25,839 bases of DNA from a virus. Below, in pieces: positions 4,389 to 25,839 of this stretch (position 1 is its first letter; every line of letters begins with the position of its first letter). The stretch spans positions 1 through 25,839 of IMG/VR virus record IMGVR_UViG_3300008050_000274; one strand, written 5' to 3'. A model generated the notes under the pieces. It was not told the DNA's origin. It saw only the letters and a program-made list of their open reading frames with translations, and made no database searches. The position numbers and the translations under genes are program-made.

Positions 4389-7300
4389 TTAGCCTAACAG
4401 TCTAAATGTTTTACCAATCGCATATGTGGAAAACCCCCAATTTTCGTCATACCGAAGGCGTGCCATATAAGGTCGGTTAATAAAGATCTTGTCTTTGTGG
4501 GGCTTAATCCCCCAACATCGGATACGAGTGAGTTCGTTATTGGAGTCGATTGTCTCCACAATCCAATATAGCTTTCCATTCTTTGTCTTGCGCTCAATAA
4601 TCTTTCGAGGAATAAACCAGCATAGCTCAAGTGCCTGATCGAACTCCGAAATAGGAGGCACAAACTTTTCCTTGAGCCGACCGACCGTTTCCGGGCTAAT
4701 AACTAGATTAATGGGGAATACCCCAGTCAGATCGGCCTTAAACTGAATGATGTCAGAGGGGCTAAAGTCGCCTTCTGGTCGATATGTCTCGATATTCTCC
4801 GCAAGCCGCTTGGGGTTCTTTGGACGATCAACAACGCATGCTGACCAGAAGTGTTTCATTCCACTGAACCGCTCGTCCTTCAAGACATCCAAGGCCCCTC
4901 CTCGACACAAGGCGTCGAGACACTTCTTATTTAGCTTGCTGTAAATGATTTCTTCGTGAAATAGAAGTTCTTCAGCAGTATTAAAGGGTCGATTATTGAG
5001 AACTTGTTCGATAGCAGAGTCTCCAAAGCCCTTGATGGAAGTCAGCGGCTGGATTAACGTACTATCATCATCGCTGATCTCCCATACTGTACCGGACTTG
5101 TTAATGTCCAGAGGGGCGATCTTAAACCCAAATCGCCTAGCAATGTTGATCGCCTTTTCCTTTCGGCTCTCGGGCTCCTTATCGAGAAAAGCAGCCATCC
5201 ATTCCGCTGGATACTTGTGCCAAAGCCAAGCACACTGATAGGAGATAAGAGAATAGCTGACAGCGTGTGACTTGTTAAAGCCGTATCCAGAGAAGTATTC
5301 GAACTTGTCCCATAGATTCTGTGCAGCATCTCTACTGATGCCCTTATCAAGACACCCTGCAATAAACTTATCGTGCAGCCTGCCCTTTACACTATTCTTG
5401 CCAGTCCCCTTCTTCGTCAAGACCTTTCGGAGCATGTTGCCCTCGTCAAGAGTAAGTCCACCAAGCTTGTGGCCGAGAAGAGCAATCTGCTCCTGGAAGA
5501 TCAGGAATCCGAAAGTCTCGCCCGTGACCTCTTGCACTTCATCCGATAGGTACTGAATGTAGTGCGGGCTCTCCTTCGCCTCGACATACTCTTCGTGGAC
5601 ATCCGCAGATAGCGGGCCGGGACGATAGATAGAAGTGATGGCGGAAATATCAATGATGTTTCGCGGCTTCACTCGGGTGCAGAACTTTTGCGCACCTTCC
5701 TCTGTAAACTGGAAGACCCCTGCCCACTTTCCAGTATGGAAGACGTCCTCATACACAGCCTGTTCTTCTAGATCAATAACATCAGGGTGCAGGTTTTCCT
5801 CATAATACTCGCGGATCTGCGTAAATGTAGGCGCTTCGATCCCATGGTGGCGGCGCAGAATGTGTTCAATCGCACCCTCCATCATCTTAAGAGTTGACAA
5901 ACCAAGCAAATCAAACTTGATGAACCCCATCGGCTCAAGATGTCGGACGTTCTGCCCTTCTGCCCATGGAGCTTGTCGAACTCCGCCTGAGTTAATCAAG
6001 GGCATGTTTTCATCGAGGTTCTCTGCAATCACAACACCGCCGGCATGACGAGAGCACGAGCGCACCTGCCCTACAAGGCCCTCGACGTGAGCCTTAACCA
6101 CGGGATACTTGTTCAGGTATGCCTGGAGCGATGAGGAAAATTCCATTACCTCCTCCCATGTGGGAACATAGACGCCGGCCTTGATACCGTGCTTCTTCTT
6201 TGCAGACGGCGTGGCTTCGCGGATCATCACGGAAGTAACCGTGTTCGCCTCTGTGAAAGGGATCTCATAGAACTTGGAGATATCCTTAATAAGACTACGT
6301 AGCTGTAGTGTGTTCCAGTTAGAAATCGGCGCAACACAATCCTCTCCCCACATCTCAACAAGCTTCTCTTTTAGAAGCATGCTGTCGGAGATATCATAGT
6401 CGATGTCTGGGTAATCGGTAGCATCGGAGCGCAAGAAGCGGGAGAACAGCAGTCCGTACTTGATCGGATCCACCTGCGTAATTCCCAGCGCATATGCCAC
6501 CAGAGAGCCGGCGGCTGAGCCGCGGCCTGGGCCGGTCAGCATCATCTCGTGCGCAGTGTCGGCAATCGCCTTCATTGTGAGGAAGTACTTTGAGAAGCCA
6601 CGATCATCGATAACATTCAATTCGTGCTTAAGGCGGTCCAGATACTCCTGGTTCTCGTTTAGCCCCTTGGAGCGTAGACCCTCCAGGGCATAGTTTACGA
6701 GCGCTTGTGTGGCTGTATGGCCGGCAGGAACGACAAAGTCTGGCAGGCGGACAGTGTTGTCCGGCAGAAAGTCCTCAATTTGATCGAAAGCGATTCTGTG
6801 GGTCTCCTCGATGGACTCTCGCACGATCTCATCGTCATATTCTACATTCGCGGCGGCGGCGTACTTCTTATAGCTCTCCCACATCTGATCGCCATTCTTG
6901 GGATATAGCTCATAGCCAACTTCGTCAACGTTGATCGGTAGCTCTGAGGACATATATGGAGGGAGACCTCCCTTGCCGAGCCAGCCAAGGCGCATATATA
7001 GCTCTCGGTCCTTCCACGCCTCTGGGGACGGATAGTGAGAATCAGCCGTCGTAATCAACTTCAGCCCGAATTCCTTGGCGATCTGGATGATATACTGATT
7101 CAAGGCGTGCTGCTCTGGAACATTGTTCCATTGTAGTTCAGCATACCAGCGATCTCCGAAGATATCAACCATTTGGCGGGTGGTCTCCCGCATAGCGTTA
7201 AGGACCGCTTCATCGCCGGCCTCACAATTCTCCCAATAGTTCCCAGCATATACGCCACCAAGGCACGCGCTGGAGGCGATGACTCCTTCGTTATACTTCT

Positions 7301-7817
7301 TCAGGAGTGCGTAGTCAATACGAGGATAGCGATAGAAGTTCTCGGGCTGGTAAGACTCAGACACCAGCTTAAACAAGTTGTTTAGCCCTTTCTGATTCTG
7401 CGCCAGAAGAACGAGGTGTCGGCGGCGCCGAAGAATATCCTGTGTCTTCTTGGAAGAGCCCTCGTCTTCCACTGTGGCGCCGGACTGGCCTTCCTTCTTA
7501 ATAGAGCGGGCCCGCTTCTTGTCTTCCATGGCCGCGGCATATTCACTGCGCCACTCGTCCAGCGATGGCAAGAAATAAGCTTCGCAGCCAAAGATCGGCT
7601 TGAACTCCTTTCCTTCAGCCCTCATCTTCTTGGCATGAAGCACTTGTCCTGCCAAAGCATTCATGTTCCCGTGATCGGTGACTGCTAGAGCCTCCCCACC
7701 GTTCTGGTAACAAAATGACATATGGTCTTTTGGGTAGCCAATGGCATCAAAAATGCTACCCGCGACGGTGTGTGCGTGGAGTCCGACAAATTTAAGCTGC
7801 GACGTGGTTCTCGCCAT
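4389..7817 (-). CDS. dnaE: DNA polymerase III alpha subunit (DnaE, family C)
   Basis: An 1142-aa replicative polymerase, close in length to E. coli DnaE (1160). In order: a PHP domain (residues ~8-290), palm/thumb/fingers (~380-880), a helix-hairpin-helix part (SIKGFGDSAIEQVL, 927-940) and an OB-type region near the C-terminus. GPGRGSAAGSLVAYALG (429-445) is the nucleotide-binding signature. Catalytic aspartates are D471 and D473 in YPDIDYDISD and D636 in KFDLLGL. GYGFNKSHAVSYSLISYQ (844-861) is a second family hallmark. The PHP metal ligands look intact: H14, H16, D24, H49, E79, H134, C185, D259, H261. Residues ~97-130 form a charged insertion. No epsilon-type exonuclease is seen in the window. 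ATG with GGAGG upstream, first gene after the promoter at 7850-7878. Confidence 0.97.
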   Translation of the reverse strand: MARTTSQLKFVGLHAHTVAGSIFDAIGYPKDHMSFCYQNGGEALAVTDHGNMNALAGQVLHAKKMRAEGKEFKPIFGCEAYFLPSLDEWRSEYAAAMEDKKRARSIKKEGQSGATVEDEGSSKKTQDILRRRRHLVLLAQNQKGLNNLFKLVSESYQPENFYRYPRIDYALLKKYNEGVIASSACLGGVYAGNYWENCEAGDEAVLNAMRETTRQMVDIFGDRWYAELQWNNVPEQHALNQYIIQIAKEFGLKLITTADSHYPSPEAWKDRELYMRLGWLGKGGLPPYMSSELPINVDEVGYELYPKNGDQMWESYKKYAAAANVEYDDEIVRESIEETHRIAFDQIEDFLPDNTVRLPDFVVPAGHTATQALVNYALEGLRSKGLNENQEYLDRLKHELNVIDDRGFSKYFLTMKAIADTAHEMMLTGPGRGSAAGSLVAYALGITQVDPIKYGLLFSRFLRSDATDYPDIDYDISDSMLLKEKLVEMWGEDCVAPISNWNTLQLRSLIKDISKFYEIPFTEANTVTSVMIREATPSAKKKHGIKAGVYVPTWEEVMEFSSSLQAYLNKYPVVKAHVEGLVGQVRSCSRHAGGVVIAENLDENMPLINSGGVRQAPWAEGQNVRHLEPMGFIKFDLLGLSTLKMMEGAIEHILRRHHGIEAPTFTQIREYYEENLHPDVIDLEEQAVYEDVFHTGKWAGVFQFTEEGAQKFCTRVKPRNIIDISAITSIYRPGPLSADVHEEYVEAKESPHYIQYLSDEVQEVTGETFGFLIFQEQIALLGHKLGGLTLDEGNMLRKVLTKKGTGKNSVKGRLHDKFIAGCLDKGISRDAAQNLWDKFEYFSGYGFNKSHAVSYSLISYQCAWLWHKYPAEWMAAFLDKEPESRKEKAINIARRFGFKIAPLDINKSGTVWEISDDDSTLIQPLTSIKGFGDSAIEQVLNNRPFNTAEELLFHEEIIYSKLNKKCLDALCRGGALDVLKDERFSGMKHFWSACVVDRPKNPKRLAENIETYRPEGDFSPSDIIQFKADLTGVFPINLVISPETVGRLKEKFVPPISEFDQALELCWFIPRKIIERKTKNGKLYWIVETIDSNNELTRIRCWGIKPHKDKIFINRPYMARLRYDENWGFSTYAIGKTFRLLG

Positions 7818-19122: not shown

Positions 19123-20271
19123 TTACTTATTCTTTGCCGGTGGGGTCGCGTCTTCAGATTCTTCATAGAAATCACTAGCATCGCCCTCCCGTCGATCAAA
19201 CTTCTGTACAATCTCCTCATCCATAATCTGGTAGACCCTTTCTCTAAAGGCCGGATCTTTCATCTTCTGTCCCCATTTTGATGGCTGAAACTTGTCTTCA
19301 GACCCGTCTTTCATTCTCAACGTGTACCATGAGCCAGAACTGGTAAGACTTTCAGATTTCTTGATTGCATCGAAAAGGCTCATATCACATTGAATGCCGA
19401 TCTCCTCTGTCCCCCATAAAATCTTAAAATGACAGTTTCTTCCCGCTGTCCCAAAGCGCGACTTTTCAAGCTTCACTTTAACTTCGGAACCAATGCGGAA
19501 ACCCTTTTCATCCTCAATGAATGCAGCCTTCGCTTTTCGGCCAGTAAGCCAAATACGTAGCGAATATGCATAGTGCATGGCTCGACCACCAGGGGTAGTG
19601 TATGGGGATACCATGGCAATCTGTCGCGCCATCGGTCCCTGGGGGATGTTAGTCTTCAACTGGTTGAGAACAAGGAACGTTGCCTTCTTATCTGCAATCG
19701 GAATAACGAGCTTAGACATGCCCTTAGCAAGGATACGTGCCTTGACTGCCATTGAGGACTGCGGGTTGAAATCCCCTTCTACATCCGAGACCGACGGCGT
19801 AAAAGCCAGAGAGTCCCAAATAAAGAGCACCTGCTCATCAGCCGCACCGAGGATCTCTTCGATAGTCTCCAGAACAAACTCGACTGATGCCGCTTGCACG
19901 TACATCAGGCGCTCTAGATCGCACCCTGCTCGCTCCAGGAACGAGGGGTCGATGGCAGACTCCGAATCAAAGTAAACGACGAGCATACCCATTTTCTGGG
20001 CGTTTGCCGCGACCTGAACAGCCATGTAGGACTTACCTGTAGCCTCCAATCCTGCGATCTCTGTGACCTTGCCTACAGGGATTCCGGTAACCTTGCCCTT
20101 GGCAATGATCGAATCAAGCCAGCGCGATCCAGTCGGAATCCACTGCTTTACTTCCGTAGGGTTGTCTCCTGTAAGATCGTGGGCGACAGTAACGCCGGCC
20201 TTCTTATTAACAAGACTCATCAAGTCTTTCATTGAAACCTTTCCAGGCTTGGTCTTAGTCTTTTTTGCCAT
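19123..20271 (-). CDS. RecA/UvsX-like recombinase
   Basis: A 382-aa strand-exchange ATPase. Walker A is GLEATGKS (residues 74-81), the glutamate-rich strand VVYFDSESAID (98-108) follows, Walker B is VLFIWDSLAF (148-157), and LVLNQLKTNIPQGP marks the region before the DNA-binding loop 2. It has about the length of T4 UvsX (391). The C-terminus is acidic (EGDASDFYEESED). It would coat ssDNA together with the SSB encoded in the same operon and drive recombination-dependent replication and repair. ATG with AAGGAAG upstream; 24 bases after the previous stop. Confidence 0.94.
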   Translation of the reverse strand: MAKKTKTKPGKVSMKDLMSLVNKKAGVTVAHDLTGDNPTEVKQWIPTGSRWLDSIIAKGKVTGIPVGKVTEIAGLEATGKSYMAVQVAANAQKMGMLVVYFDSESAIDPSFLERAGCDLERLMYVQAASVEFVLETIEEILGAADEQVLFIWDSLAFTPSVSDVEGDFNPQSSMAVKARILAKGMSKLVIPIADKKATFLVLNQLKTNIPQGPMARQIAMVSPYTTPGGRAMHYAYSLRIWLTGRKAKAAFIEDEKGFRIGSEVKVKLEKSRFGTAGRNCHFKILWGTEEIGIQCDMSLFDAIKKSESLTSSGSWYTLRMKDGSEDKFQPSKWGQKMKDPAFRERVYQIMDEEIVQKFDRREGDASDFYEESEDATPPAKNK

Positions 20272-21648: not shown

Positions 21649-22416
21649 TCAGGCCATCAATTCCTCAAACGCCTTATCAACATCATTCGTAGGTTGGGCG
21701 GAGTACTTGGCCGACTCAGTTGAACGGCTTTCGGCAGAACCATCGCCAGAAAGCTGCTCATCCAAGATAGCGCCGACCTGCTCTGTGGTCAGACGTTCGA
21801 ATAGTGTATCGAACGAAGGGATGCGGTCTAGGAGGGCAGGGATAGACTCAGCATCAGGGAGCAGTTGGGATGTGTTTCGACGCATCTTTAGGCTCGTTTG
21901 TGGAAATGCACCCGGCTTATTGGGCTTAGTGTAAGTAAGGGCGATATCGGTGCCCTCATGGGCATCTGTGATATCTCCGTACTCAGGGTCAAGGATATAG
22001 CCGAGAAGAAGCTCATATGCCTTCTTACCGTAGCCATATACCTTTACGCCCTCATCCTCACGCCCTCGGACGACGACGGGAGAGAAGTAGCGCTGGCGGA
22101 CAAAGAGCGACTTAGCAAGGTTCTTGCTATCCTCGTCATTGTTCGCCGTTCCTTCACGCCACAGGGCGGAAGCAAAGTCGCAAATCGGGCATCCATCTCC
22201 GAAATTGCGCTTGGGGCAAAGAACACCGCCACGGTGCTCGCCCACGTTATAGTGGAAGGCCATCTCCTTGAGAGGATCGCCATCGTTCGTCGGAACAATA
22301 CGAATATCCGTATCGCCCTCGTCCGGCTTAAACCAGACCGATGTGCTGTCGTCTCCACGTCCTTCTCCACGAAGGGATGCGAGCTTCCGCCGCATCAGTT
22401 CCATATCAATTGCCAT
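21649..22416 (-). CDS. Single-stranded DNA-binding protein, T4 gp32-like
   Basis: A 255-aa protein. The N-terminal ~15 residues (MELMRRKLASLRGEG) are basic and helical, as in gp32's cooperativity domain. A zinc site is visible in HYNVGEH (55-61) and CPKRNFGDGCPICD (67-80): His55 or His61 with Cys67, Cys76 and Cys79, comparable to gp32 H64/C77/C87/C90. The core has aromatic strands (SLFVRQRYFSPVVV). The C-terminus is acidic and ends VDKAFEELMA after a Ser-rich linker, suited to recruit partners. Strong AAGGAG before the ATG; own promoter and downstream terminator suggest high expression. Confidence 0.88.
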   Translation of the reverse strand: MAIDMELMRRKLASLRGEGRGDDSTSVWFKPDEGDTDIRIVPTNDGDPLKEMAFHYNVGEHRGGVLCPKRNFGDGCPICDFASALWREGTANNDEDSKNLAKSLFVRQRYFSPVVVRGREDEGVKVYGYGKKAYELLLGYILDPEYGDITDAHEGTDIALTYTKPNKPGAFPQTSLKMRRNTSQLLPDAESIPALLDRIPSFDTLFERLTTEQVGAILDEQLSGDGSAESRSTESAKYSAQPTNDVDKAFEELMA

Positions 22417-22468: not shown

Positions 22469-22497
22469 ATTGTGGCACACTTGACGTAGCTTGTCAA
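22469..22497 (-). promoter_or_regulatory. Promoter of ssb operon
   Basis: Minus strand TTGACA (22492-22497), 17-base spacer, CACAAT (22469-22474) preceded by TGC (extended -10). The -10 hexamer is weak but the -35 is perfect and spacing matches the other promoters. The -35 contains the TGA stop of the tubulin-like gene. Confidence 0.7.
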
Positions 22498-23333
22498 GAG
22501 TATTTTTGTATTACGTTTGTTAGGGCAACGCAAAACCCAAAATCTTCAAAATCGGTCTCATAAATTGCATATGAGATCTTGCGAAAAGCATTTCGCGGTT
22601 TGTTCTTAAGCAGGTTAACGATTTTCTTGTGCAGGCCTCCGTCTGTCTCTAGTTTTTCCTTGTTTATACACATATAATAGCATACATCTCGGTCCATGTC
22701 AAGCTCAAAAAGCCACTTTTCTTCTAAATCCTTCACATTGAGCAAACCGATAGTTCTAATACGGCAAATGTCCAATGGCTTTGCCACCATTCCGATTTCT
22801 GGCTCATTGTGTTCAAAGAAATTTAGGTAATGAACTGTAGAGAAAACAGAGTCGTTCAGCGTGTCATAGTATTTCTTGATCGGCACATTGCCAAGGTGAC
22901 CTTCGATAAGCTCGTTACTCATGATTGTGAGCGACTTCAAGAGCCCGGAGCGAGCATACTGCTGTAGGATGCTAAAAACGACTTTATCCAGAAGCTTCGG
23001 AACCCCGGTCAGCAACTCTGAATCGGGCTTAATATAGAACACTTCGACTTGCTTGTCTTTTAGCTGTTCCAGGATCCCCAAAGCATAGTTTGAACTCATC
23101 GAAGAACCAACAACAAACAAATGCACGCGATCATTCACGTCAGCAAAGAACTTTCCCAAATCAGGAATATTGTCTTCGTATTCTTCTGGTGTCGAGAATA
23201 CCTTCAACTTCCTCTTATACTTGGTGTTACGTTCGACCTTGCTATTCAGTTGATACACCTTATAGTTGCCGACTGCTCTAAACTTTTCTGCGATGTTAGA
23301 AGCTGCGTTTCCAATTCCGATAATCGAAATCAT
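22494..23333 (-). CDS. Possible diverged tubulin/FtsZ-fold protein
   Basis: A 279-aa protein. Its order of elements follows the FtsZ/tubulin GTPase domain: MISIIGIGNAASNIAEKF (residues 1-18) like the FtsZ start with GxGGxGxNA (loop T1); LFVVGSSMSSNYALGILEQL (72-91) where FtsZ has the T4 loop GGGTGTG followed by helix H4; VEVFYIKP (96-103); VFSILQQYARSG (119-130); LTIMSNELIEG (134-144) where FtsZ has LIVIPNxxL; then a helix YYDTLNDSVFSTVHYL. The signature GGGTG(T/S)G itself is absent (GSSMSSN), so GTP binding is doubtful. It is coupled by ATGA to the polymerase gene. Assignment is by pattern only; it could be another Rossmann-like fold. Confidence 0.5.
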   Translation of the reverse strand: MISIIGIGNAASNIAEKFRAVGNYKVYQLNSKVERNTKYKRKLKVFSTPEEYEDNIPDLGKFFADVNDRVHLFVVGSSMSSNYALGILEQLKDKQVEVFYIKPDSELLTGVPKLLDKVVFSILQQYARSGLLKSLTIMSNELIEGHLGNVPIKKYYDTLNDSVFSTVHYLNFFEHNEPEIGMVAKPLDICRIRTIGLLNVKDLEEKWLFELDMDRDVCYYMCINKEKLETDGGLHKKIVNLLKNKPRNAFRKISYAIYETDFEDFGFCVALTNVIQKYS

Positions 23334-24502
23334 ATCTCCATTCCGGTCAACTCAAAATAGTTCTTACCTGCCTTCATAGTGCTCAGATAGCCATCTTCAA
23401 AAGCAGCCTTTACGTCCTTAATAAGGGGGCGGTCTTCATCGCTGTAGTCAATGACCACTTCATCGTGAAGAATGTGGGAGACAAATGACTTCTTGCCTTC
23501 CAACATCTCATCAATTATGGCCGCCTTGGCCAGAACACGATCAGCAGTGGTACTTTGAATAAGATAATTCATGGCTCGCCAATCGTCAACTTCCATCTTT
23601 CTCTGATAAGGTGTAATAATATAACCGTCTTTATACCATTTGTCAAGCAATTTCTTCTTGTCGTAAAAATCGTTGTTCAAGGCATTGGAATCGGGATTAT
23701 ACAGCCATGCAAAGAACTCCACCTTCGCCTCATCGCGCGTTAGGCTGTTAGAGAACACATTGCGCACATTCCACTCATGGATATCATAATCCGGCTGATC
23801 AGCGCCGCAAAGTTCGATGAATGTACGGACTTCTGCTCCATTGTAATCCAAAGCCACGAAAAGGTCGTTATTTGGCTTCAGAAGCTTCCGAAACTCCTTC
23901 TTGAGGGTTAGTACCGGAAAAGTCCCAGGAAGCGTTGTGAGGCGTCCTGTGGCTGTCCCAAAGAGGTTATAGTCGATGTACGAGTAGTTCGAACACAAAT
24001 CCTGTGCTTTCATTCGTTTTTGGGACGACAGAAGCAAGCTTCGGCAGTCTGTAGTGTTCAGATTCAGTCGGTTCTGGCGGATATTGTAAAGCAGCTTGTG
24101 AACCTTTACCAGATGATCGTAATTGGCGGGCTTCTCGATGGTCTCAAAAACATGCTCCGTAATCTGGTTCTTGACATCACAATAGCGAGCAAGAAAGTCA
24201 TGCGGCACGAGATCAAAAATACAGTGCTCGTTCAGGTTTACCTTTGCAATTCTGAATGTCTTGGTGTAGGCACGCATTTTACGCTGAAGTTTCTCAAGCT
24301 CTTCTGATAGCTCTTCCGAGCATGCGGAGCGCAGGTCTTTACCGTGGCCGCGAATCCAGGCATATTCTACGTCTTTGTCTTTAAGGGAGCCGCCATATCT
24401 CCAGGTGCGCGTAAGTTCAGTCGGAAAGTCATCAAAATACAGCCTCCCATTCGTATAAATGCCAACGCATTCTGATTTATCATCAATAGTTTGAAAATAC
24501 AT
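23330..24502 (-). CDS. Minimal family A DNA polymerase (PolA-like palm and fingers, no exonuclease)
   Basis: A 390-aa protein carrying the Pol I catalytic core. GTATGRLT (residues 182-189) precedes motif A LDYNGAEVR (218-226: Asp219, Glu224, matching Klenow D705/E710). Motif B fits with R256, K260, F264 and Y268 in RDEAKVEFFAWLY, the same spacing as Klenow R754, K758, F762 and Y766. NYLIQSTTADRV (312-323) matches NxxIQGxxAD, and motif C is HILHDEVV (343-350; Asp347, Glu348). Fingers and inter-motif parts are shorter than in Pol I. The N-terminal ~130 residues show no 3'-5' exonuclease motifs. A role in repair, gap filling or a special replication step is inference, as DnaE is also encoded. 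ATG; 14 bases after the upstream stop. Confidence 0.85.
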   Translation of the reverse strand: MYFQTIDDKSECVGIYTNGRLYFDDFPTELTRTWRYGGSLKDKDVEYAWIRGHGKDLRSACSEELSEELEKLQRKMRAYTKTFRIAKVNLNEHCIFDLVPHDFLARYCDVKNQITEHVFETIEKPANYDHLVKVHKLLYNIRQNRLNLNTTDCRSLLLSSQKRMKAQDLCSNYSYIDYNLFGTATGRLTTLPGTFPVLTLKKEFRKLLKPNNDLFVALDYNGAEVRTFIELCGADQPDYDIHEWNVRNVFSNSLTRDEAKVEFFAWLYNPDSNALNNDFYDKKKLLDKWYKDGYIITPYQRKMEVDDWRAMNYLIQSTTADRVLAKAAIIDEMLEGKKSFVSHILHDEVVIDYSDEDRPLIKDVKAAFEDGYLSTMKAGKNYFELTGMEI

Positions 24503-24516
24503 TACTCACACTTAAT

Positions 24517-25836
24517 TTAGAGGTCCGGGATGTCTTCGGAAGCCTGCAATGATTGGATGGCGGCCTGACCTGGAATAGATGCGCCGTATGTAGAGGGGGA
24601 ATCCTGGCGATCCGTAGCCTGATTCGCTCCTGTATGGGACTCCAGATATGGTGGAACTTCCGGTACAACAGTGGACTGTGTGCCTCCATCAACCAGACTT
24701 TCTCCACTATTGATATATTCATTAAATGCTGTTTCAGTCTCTAGCATTTCCAACACCTCTGGCGAATCTGATTCAAAAGCCTGTAAAAGTTCTCTTCTAA
24801 AGAGATCCTCTGCTTTTGCCTCCAGGTGTCTCTTAATATACTCGAAAGATCTGCGTTTGTCAAATTCTTTATTGATGACGACCTCAAAATTCTTCACGGC
24901 GCGAGCATAATTTGAACGCGCTTTTCCGATATCAACCGTTTTTGTGATAAGCCTGTTGGCCTCGATAGACGTCAACTCTGGCTGCTCCTCGTAAAGCCTG
25001 ATGCGCAGATAATATTTCATCATCTGAATTACGCCCTGCTCCCGAAGAAGAGTAGAAAGTGTATATCTTGTGGGATAAATCTTCTTGTACGTCGTGCATC
25101 CGTTGCGAATGGTCGCTTTCTTGTAGTTCCGCACTTTACAAGCATCATAGAGTGCCAGAAGATCCTGAGAAAAGGACTGTAGATTGACTATTGGTGCGCT
25201 TCTATATGCGCGAGAGAAAACAGTCTCCAAATTAGGCATCCCGTAGCGGGCGCCAATTTCAGTCGTCAATTCTGAATCTATATCTGCCACAATCCTCCAA
25301 GGTATATTAGAGTCTACCATAAAACCGTATGTATCGCAAGCGTTAATATAAAACTGCCAGTTTGGGCTCTCTAGAAACTGTCTTACCTTCTCATCGTCAT
25401 TCTCGTATGACAAGTCGGCTATCTCTAAAGCAAGTCCGCTAGCTAAAACAGTGCAATCGCCACTCTTGAGAAAACCAGGAAAAGTGAATTTACTCGCCTT
25501 GGTGGTTCCTTGAATAAGGGGCATCAATTCTTTGATAAACTCGTCAAAGCTAGAGAAGCGGATCCGGTTCTTTTTGAAGAATGAAGCCAAGCTGGCAAAA
25601 TACGCTCTTTTATGAGAACGATACTGAACATATGGAGAGTTGTATGCTCTGTAGACCTTTAGGGTAGATAAATAGGGATCGTTAGGCACGATATTCTTAA
25701 GCATTGAGGCTTTTTCAAATTGGAGTGCCATCTCGTTAAACCCATCCAGCACATAGTTGACGGCCTGTAGTGTTTGTCCTCGGTTTCCTGTGTATGAGAG
25801 CGTTTTTAATGTGTTCTCTCTCAAACATATCGGCAC
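24517..25836 (-). CDS. Large unknown protein (5' end may lie beyond the window)
   Basis: At least 439 residues; I cannot assign a function. Helical segments with many Tyr/Arg/Lys dominate residues 1-360; YGFMVDSNIPWRIVADIDS (about residues 169-187) followed by a region of ~50 residues ending QDLLALYDAC stands out. From ~385 the C-terminus becomes a low-complexity Ser/Thr/Pro/Gly/Gln tail. I have an impression of similar proteins in large marine phages, possibly virion-linked, but cannot verify it. The frame is open to the window edge; in-frame starts are GTG at 25836 or TTG at 25824, and neither can be checked for a ribosome site. It precedes the PolA-like gene by 14 bases. Confidence 0.75.
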   Translation of the reverse strand: MPICLRENTLKTLSYTGNRGQTLQAVNYVLDGFNEMALQFEKASMLKNIVPNDPYLSTLKVYRAYNSPYVQYRSHKRAYFASLASFFKKNRIRFSSFDEFIKELMPLIQGTTKASKFTFPGFLKSGDCTVLASGLALEIADLSYENDDEKVRQFLESPNWQFYINACDTYGFMVDSNIPWRIVADIDSELTTEIGARYGMPNLETVFSRAYRSAPIVNLQSFSQDLLALYDACKVRNYKKATIRNGCTTYKKIYPTRYTLSTLLREQGVIQMMKYYLRIRLYEEQPELTSIEANRLITKTVDIGKARSNYARAVKNFEVVINKEFDKRRSFEYIKRHLEAKAEDLFRRELLQAFESDSPEVLEMLETETAFNEYINSGESLVDGGTQSTVVPEVPPYLESHTGANQATDRQDSPSTYGASIPGQAAIQSLQASEDIPDL

Positions 25837-25839
25837 AAG

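Follow-up and report, generated by a model that had tools for sequence, protein, structure and literature searches.

A predicted tubulin-fold protein without the GTPase signature, encoded in overlap with a family-A DNA polymerase in uncultured marine phages

The window, that is, the whole 25,839-nucleotide stretch analysed here (IMG/VR record IMGVR_UViG_3300008050_000274, positions 1 to 25,839), carries a block of replication genes on its minus strand. At 22494..23333 (−) lies a 279-residue ORF with an ATG start, encoding a protein of predicted tubulin fold devoid of the GTPase signature and referred to here as the pseudotubulin. As the sequence shows directly, its gene starts within the TGA stop codon of the preceding polymerase gene, through an ATGA overlap at 23330..23333 (−). 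That polymerase (23330..24502, −; 390 aa) belongs to family A (PHROG 17, E 2.5e-17; PF00476 over the cut-off) and comprises the polymerase domain alone, no 3′–5′ exonuclease part being seen. Motif C (HDE) and the O-helix pattern are present in 187/187 relative ORFs, 153 of which also carry the strict motif-A pattern. Upstream of the polymerase, a conserved neighbour, orf439 (24517..25839, −), runs off the window; its product of at least 440 aa has no match in PHROG or Pfam. A single-strand DNA binding protein (SSB) gene sits directly downstream of the pseudotubulin gene (21649..22416, −; PHROG 1192, E 4.6e-21), and a UvsX-like recombinase gene (19123..20271, −; PHROG 97, E 4e-59) belongs to the same block. 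The order orf439, polA, pseudotubulin, SSB, UvsX-like recombinase recurs in the first-scan loci for as much of the block as each contig covers, with other genes inserted after SSB at times. The window also encodes a family-C polymerase, a DnaE/PHP-like protein of 1142 aa at 4389–7817 (−) that was read by eye.

The junction between the polymerase and pseudotubulin genes is invariant. Wherever it could be read, in 142/142 distinct genes, the pseudotubulin start overlaps the stop of the polymerase gene, in line with the ATGA fusion and the joint translation that the sequence-only reading had proposed for the window. A script scored 135 of these genes as starting at −4 and seven at −7; in the −7 cases L020, L021, L028 and L075 a real ATG is also found at −4, the HMM start having been placed one codon early. 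The fixed ATGA overlap argues for coupled production of the two proteins and, probably, for a complex with the polymerase. In one alternative explanation, the tubulin fold may have been reused as a stable subunit of an exonuclease-less family-A polymerase, contributing to fidelity, processivity or hand-off to SSB, with no link to a filament. The invariant four-base overlap with polA, the adjoining SSB gene and the bare 390-aa core of the polymerase all speak for such an accessory, which we regard as possible, if somewhat doubtful.

The gene belongs to an abundant family. An initial IMG/VR scan yielded 65 close relatives, a scan with an alignment as query brought the count to at least 494 IMG/VR stretches, and a further 101 came from a search centred on a more remote member at about 48% identity. 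These relatives establish the ORF as real. Identity ranges from 48 to 82%. The 198 full-length loci reduce to 143 distinct genes. Reading frames are intact in the distinct full-length copies, and 40 close pairs give a median dN/dS of 0.05. Hundreds of relatives together with this ratio rule out a chance ORF. Other searches did not recover it: it was found in 0 of 84,980 species genomes of bacteria and archaea, tblastn against 50,697 phage records returned no match, no PHROG or Pfam family recognises it, and PDB sequences searched by profile gave nothing meaningful. The family is strongly conserved and phage-only, and it is carried by a large group of uncultured marine viruses. Searches of open-licence literature turned up neither a phage pseudotubulin nor a phage with two tubulins, an absence that is itself weak evidence.

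The assignment of a fold comes from structure prediction. An AlphaFold2 model of the pseudotubulin built from 32 natural relatives reached a pLDDT of 88.8 and a pTM of 0.89. When it was searched against the PDB with Foldseek, FtsZ and TubZ chains ranked first (E 1e-12 to 6e-11, TM mostly 0.64–0.72); the best match was E. coli FtsZ (E 1e-12, TM 0.69), and identity in the top rows was 8–15%. VIA-align, used as a second look at these matches, aligned the model with CetZ at Z 23.7 (258 residues, 3.1 Å), with TubZ at Z 22.6, with FtsZ at Z 21.6 and with tubulin at Z 21.4. The matches span 258–272 residues, cover both domains and reach from residue 1 to residue 279. Among viral models (BFVD), the FtsZ from an uncultured phage came first (E 2e-13), with PhuZ-type tubulins also among the best matches (E 1e-8 to 1e-5). 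The predicted model has the elements in tubulin order: an N-terminal domain of nucleotide-binding type, a long helix where core helix H7 would lie (residues 152–174; 22812..22880, −, from the model secondary structure) and a C-terminal domain. The topology on which the sequence-only reading had staked its proposal is therefore seen in the predicted structure over the entire length, and the pseudotubulin almost certainly adopts a tubulin fold. Weak Pfam matches to F420_oxidored (E 0.015) and CoA_binding_2 (E 0.25) had raised the alternative of a dehydrogenase or CoA-binding Rossmann protein, which was rejected, since the match between the model and tubulins extends through both domains; other sub-threshold Pfam matches, Uteroglobin among them, were disregarded.

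The same model departs from its canonical counterparts in several respects. The pseudotubulin shares both domains with CetZ, FtsZ and TubZ (3zid, 6ll6 and 2xka; Z 21–24), but it is shorter than they are, 12–15% identical to them and trimmed in its C-terminal domain. The secondary structure of the model shows no H8 helix, and the order of secondary-structure elements, taken by itself, suggests that FtsZ helices H8 and H9 are both missing. The modelled chain stops seven residues past the last strand and so has no C-terminal tail. The apparent absence of H8 and H9 would remove much of the normal filament interface, which again fits a polymerase subunit with no filament to join. At the level of sequence profiles, hhalign of the pseudotubulin profile against an FtsZ profile gave a non-significant E of 0.06.

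In FtsZ, the T1 Asn and the H7 Asp contact guanine, and the T7 Asp is catalytic. The strings singled out by the sequence-only reading are all in place (GIGNAASN, residues 6–13; VVGSSMSSN, 74–82; YIKP, 100–103; IMSNEL, 137–142), and the loss of GGGTGTG that it noted in the window gene extends family-wide, such a motif occurring in 0/143 distinct genes. At the T4 position the window protein has GSSMSSNY (residues 76–83; 23085..23108, −), and the family alignment shows a loop of the type GSSxS[SA]N[YA], of which Gly76 is invariant among 35 aligned sequences. In the T1-like loop (23295..23318, −), Gly8 is invariant and Gly6 is kept in 34/35, and the position of the guanine-contacting Asn holds N in 14/35 and otherwise A, K, S or R. 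The aligned H7 Asp position is D in four of the 35. The T7-equivalent, PLDICRIR (residues 186–193; 22755..22778, −), carries R in 30, K in four and V in one sequence at position 191, which is aligned with the catalytic Asp by sequence pattern and secondary structure rather than by model coordinates; an acidic residue lies three residues ahead, at position 188 (D/E in 33/35). Because neither the T4 signature nor the aligned catalytic residue is kept and the guanine-contacting positions vary, GTP binding and hydrolysis have probably been lost, making the protein a likely pseudo-GTPase. Nucleotide binding of some kind is possible, since a Ser/Gly loop can bind phosphate. Taken further, this idea would make the pseudotubulin a nucleotide-dependent filament protein still, in which GSSxSSNY would replace the usual phosphate loop. 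The invariance of Gly8 and Gly76, loops that remain small and polar, and the retention of both domains and a long H7-like helix are compatible with it; the variable Asn and Asp positions, the R/K/V found in 35/35 at the aligned catalytic position and the lack of a predicted H8 render it very unlikely.

Since the fold is that of tubulin while the signature, the catalytic residue and recognition by known profiles are missing, we place the family on a non-canonical branch of the fold, probably devoid of GTPase activity, and class it outside FtsZ, TubZ and PhuZ. Known phage tubulins are GTP-driven filaments that move DNA, the phage nucleus or capsids. PhuZ and phage TubZ of the nucleus-forming jumbo phages resemble the pseudotubulin in being phage-encoded and tubulin-folded; they differ from it in that the pseudotubulin lacks the T4 signature and the C-terminal tail and has its gene coupled to that of a polymerase. 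PhuZ(RAY) retains the tubulin T4 signature and assembles filaments (PMC10299810), the tubulins of marine jumbo phages are of PhuZ type (PMC9123017), and jumbo-phage tubulins overall fall into two kinds (PMC7824862). A conserved signature-less tubulin whose gene is inseparable from that of a DNA polymerase would put the fold to a new use. Putatively degenerate GTPase motifs in tubulin/FtsZ-like folds occur in eukaryotic Misato/DML1 and ARC3, which regulate active partners; these are eukaryotic proteins, unlike the phage-borne pseudotubulin. Another phage cytoskeletal protein, AlpC of prophage CGP3, is not known to be coupled to a polymerase gene. In contrast to the pseudotubulin, AlpC has an actin fold and is an active filament protein; it is reported to be needed for efficient viral DNA replication (PMC4446434).

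The lineage that carries the pseudotubulin consists of T4-like marine phages of about 190 kb, the T4-like placement being by terminase. A 190-kb relative, G001 (the source of L102), encodes a second tubulin-like protein, 383 aa long and over the Pfam PF00091 cut-off (E 5.6e-10). Its motifs are intact in alignment (T1 GVGGGGN, T4 GGGGGTGSS, T7 FDS[KR]DLET), and hhalign matches it to the FtsZ profile with an E of 7e-9. Judged by sequence, this second tubulin is an FtsZ/tubulin with an intact GTPase signature. Its structure model has low confidence (pLDDT 47.6), and its Foldseek matches were for that reason not relied on. As hhalign between the pseudotubulin profile and that of this companion was not significant, no descent of one from the other is claimed. 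Of annotated phage records, the one closest to the second tubulin is the putative FtsZ-like G_138 of phage G (AEO93400.1; 26% identity over 45%, E 3e-4); phage G has no match to the pseudotubulin profile. Most FtsZ matches in records labelled as phage look like bacterial contamination; these matches were kept as an FtsZ reference set alone, which also included an E. coli FtsZ sequence (99.7% match to a deposited one).

The two tubulin genes travel together at a distance. In the loci listed, the second tubulin gene lies between a fused SbcD/SbcC-like gene and the terminase gene, and the pseudotubulin gene follows 37.6–43.9 kb downstream on the same strand. Among 31 contigs carrying the second tubulin, the pseudotubulin is present in 10/10 that extend at least 40 kb downstream and in 0/21 that extend 36 kb or less; the tenth of the former, G043, was tested once the rule was apparent and obeyed it. 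Two more contigs end at the distance that this spacing predicts, their edges falling within the second tubulin gene. This co-presence is known from relatives: only 2.5 kb of the window lies upstream of the pseudotubulin gene, so the second tubulin is not visible in the window's own phage. Given the spacing of 38–44 kb and the position of the second gene between the SbcCD-like gene and the terminase, the two do not form one operon. The SbcD and SbcC halves (T4 gp47/gp46 type) are apparently joined in a single ORF of about 1043 aa (L133:11417-14545), which in the 190-kb relative immediately precedes the intact FtsZ-like gene; many relatives have a match to it there.

Cultured phages related to this lineage present a different picture. 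The nearest TerL records are those of the Flavobacterium phages immuto (47% identical) and Microcystis phage Mel-JY01 (43%), and neither the pseudotubulin nor the second tubulin was detected in immuto or Mel-JY01. No tubulin-like protein was found at the same locus in either of them: immuto carries two small unknown genes at the corresponding place, and Mel-JY01 has a 428-aa gene ahead of SSB that weakly matches a methyltransferase PHROG. A role confined to the polymerase leaves unexplained why lineages with the pseudotubulin also keep a GTPase-type tubulin, while neither tubulin was detected in these closest relatives, whose SSB and recombinase genes are homologous. Such a polymerase-subunit-only role is nonetheless nearly as likely as that of a filament partner.

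The explanation we prefer, at a probability of about 0.4, is that the pseudotubulin is a non-catalytic partner of the polymerase that likely links replication to the FtsZ-like filament encoded by the phage itself. Its GTPase residues are lost yet purifying selection is strong, which argues for a structural role, and the presence of a second, GTPase-competent tubulin in the same phages suggests that this role is that of a non-catalytic filament partner. The pseudotubulin would be made by translational coupling with the family-A polymerase and most likely would bind the polymerase and the replication machinery. Its tubulin surfaces may then cap, nucleate or dock on the FtsZ-like filament, whereby the polymerase/SSB complex or the replicating DNA would be tied to that filament. 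Several points weigh against this proposal: genes conserved in one phage lineage can co-occur without interaction, the two tubulins are not in one operon, the pair is known from relatives of the window's phage, and the Ser/Gly loop may still bind phosphate. Its fuller form, a two-component tubulin cytoskeleton in which an FtsZ-like GTPase makes the filament and the pseudotubulin links the replisome or replicating DNA to it, is put forward tentatively and at clearly less than even odds.

Besides organising replication sites, the sequence-only reading had offered a block of host FtsZ. On that account, the pseudotubulin would be dominant-negative, capping or poisoning the FtsZ of the host so that division stops during infection. 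An FtsZ fold minus its catalytic residues could indeed resemble a capping subunit, and phage inhibitors of FtsZ exist, lambda Kil reportedly being one (PMC3961180). The gene sits in the conserved replication core, not among variable host-takeover genes, which makes an attack on host FtsZ less likely, and conservation of this strength (48–82% identity, dN/dS 0.05) suggests a partner encoded by the phage; we consider host takeover unlikely. The conserved context favours the organisation of replication sites. If the two-component reading is true, these viruses would encode a tubulin-based replication scaffold, and a phage that has one active tubulin and one inactive would offer a small and testable model for cooperation of such cytoskeletal subunits.

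Two minor observations concern further tubulin features. The second tubulin (L139:8001-9149) bears a nearly invariant acidic N-terminal extension, residues 1–66, which is unusual for a tail and is perhaps a docking peptide. A sub-threshold PF00091 match (E 0.04) was also seen in L396 (LR756508.1), a 484-kb uncultured phage, with one TAA read through.
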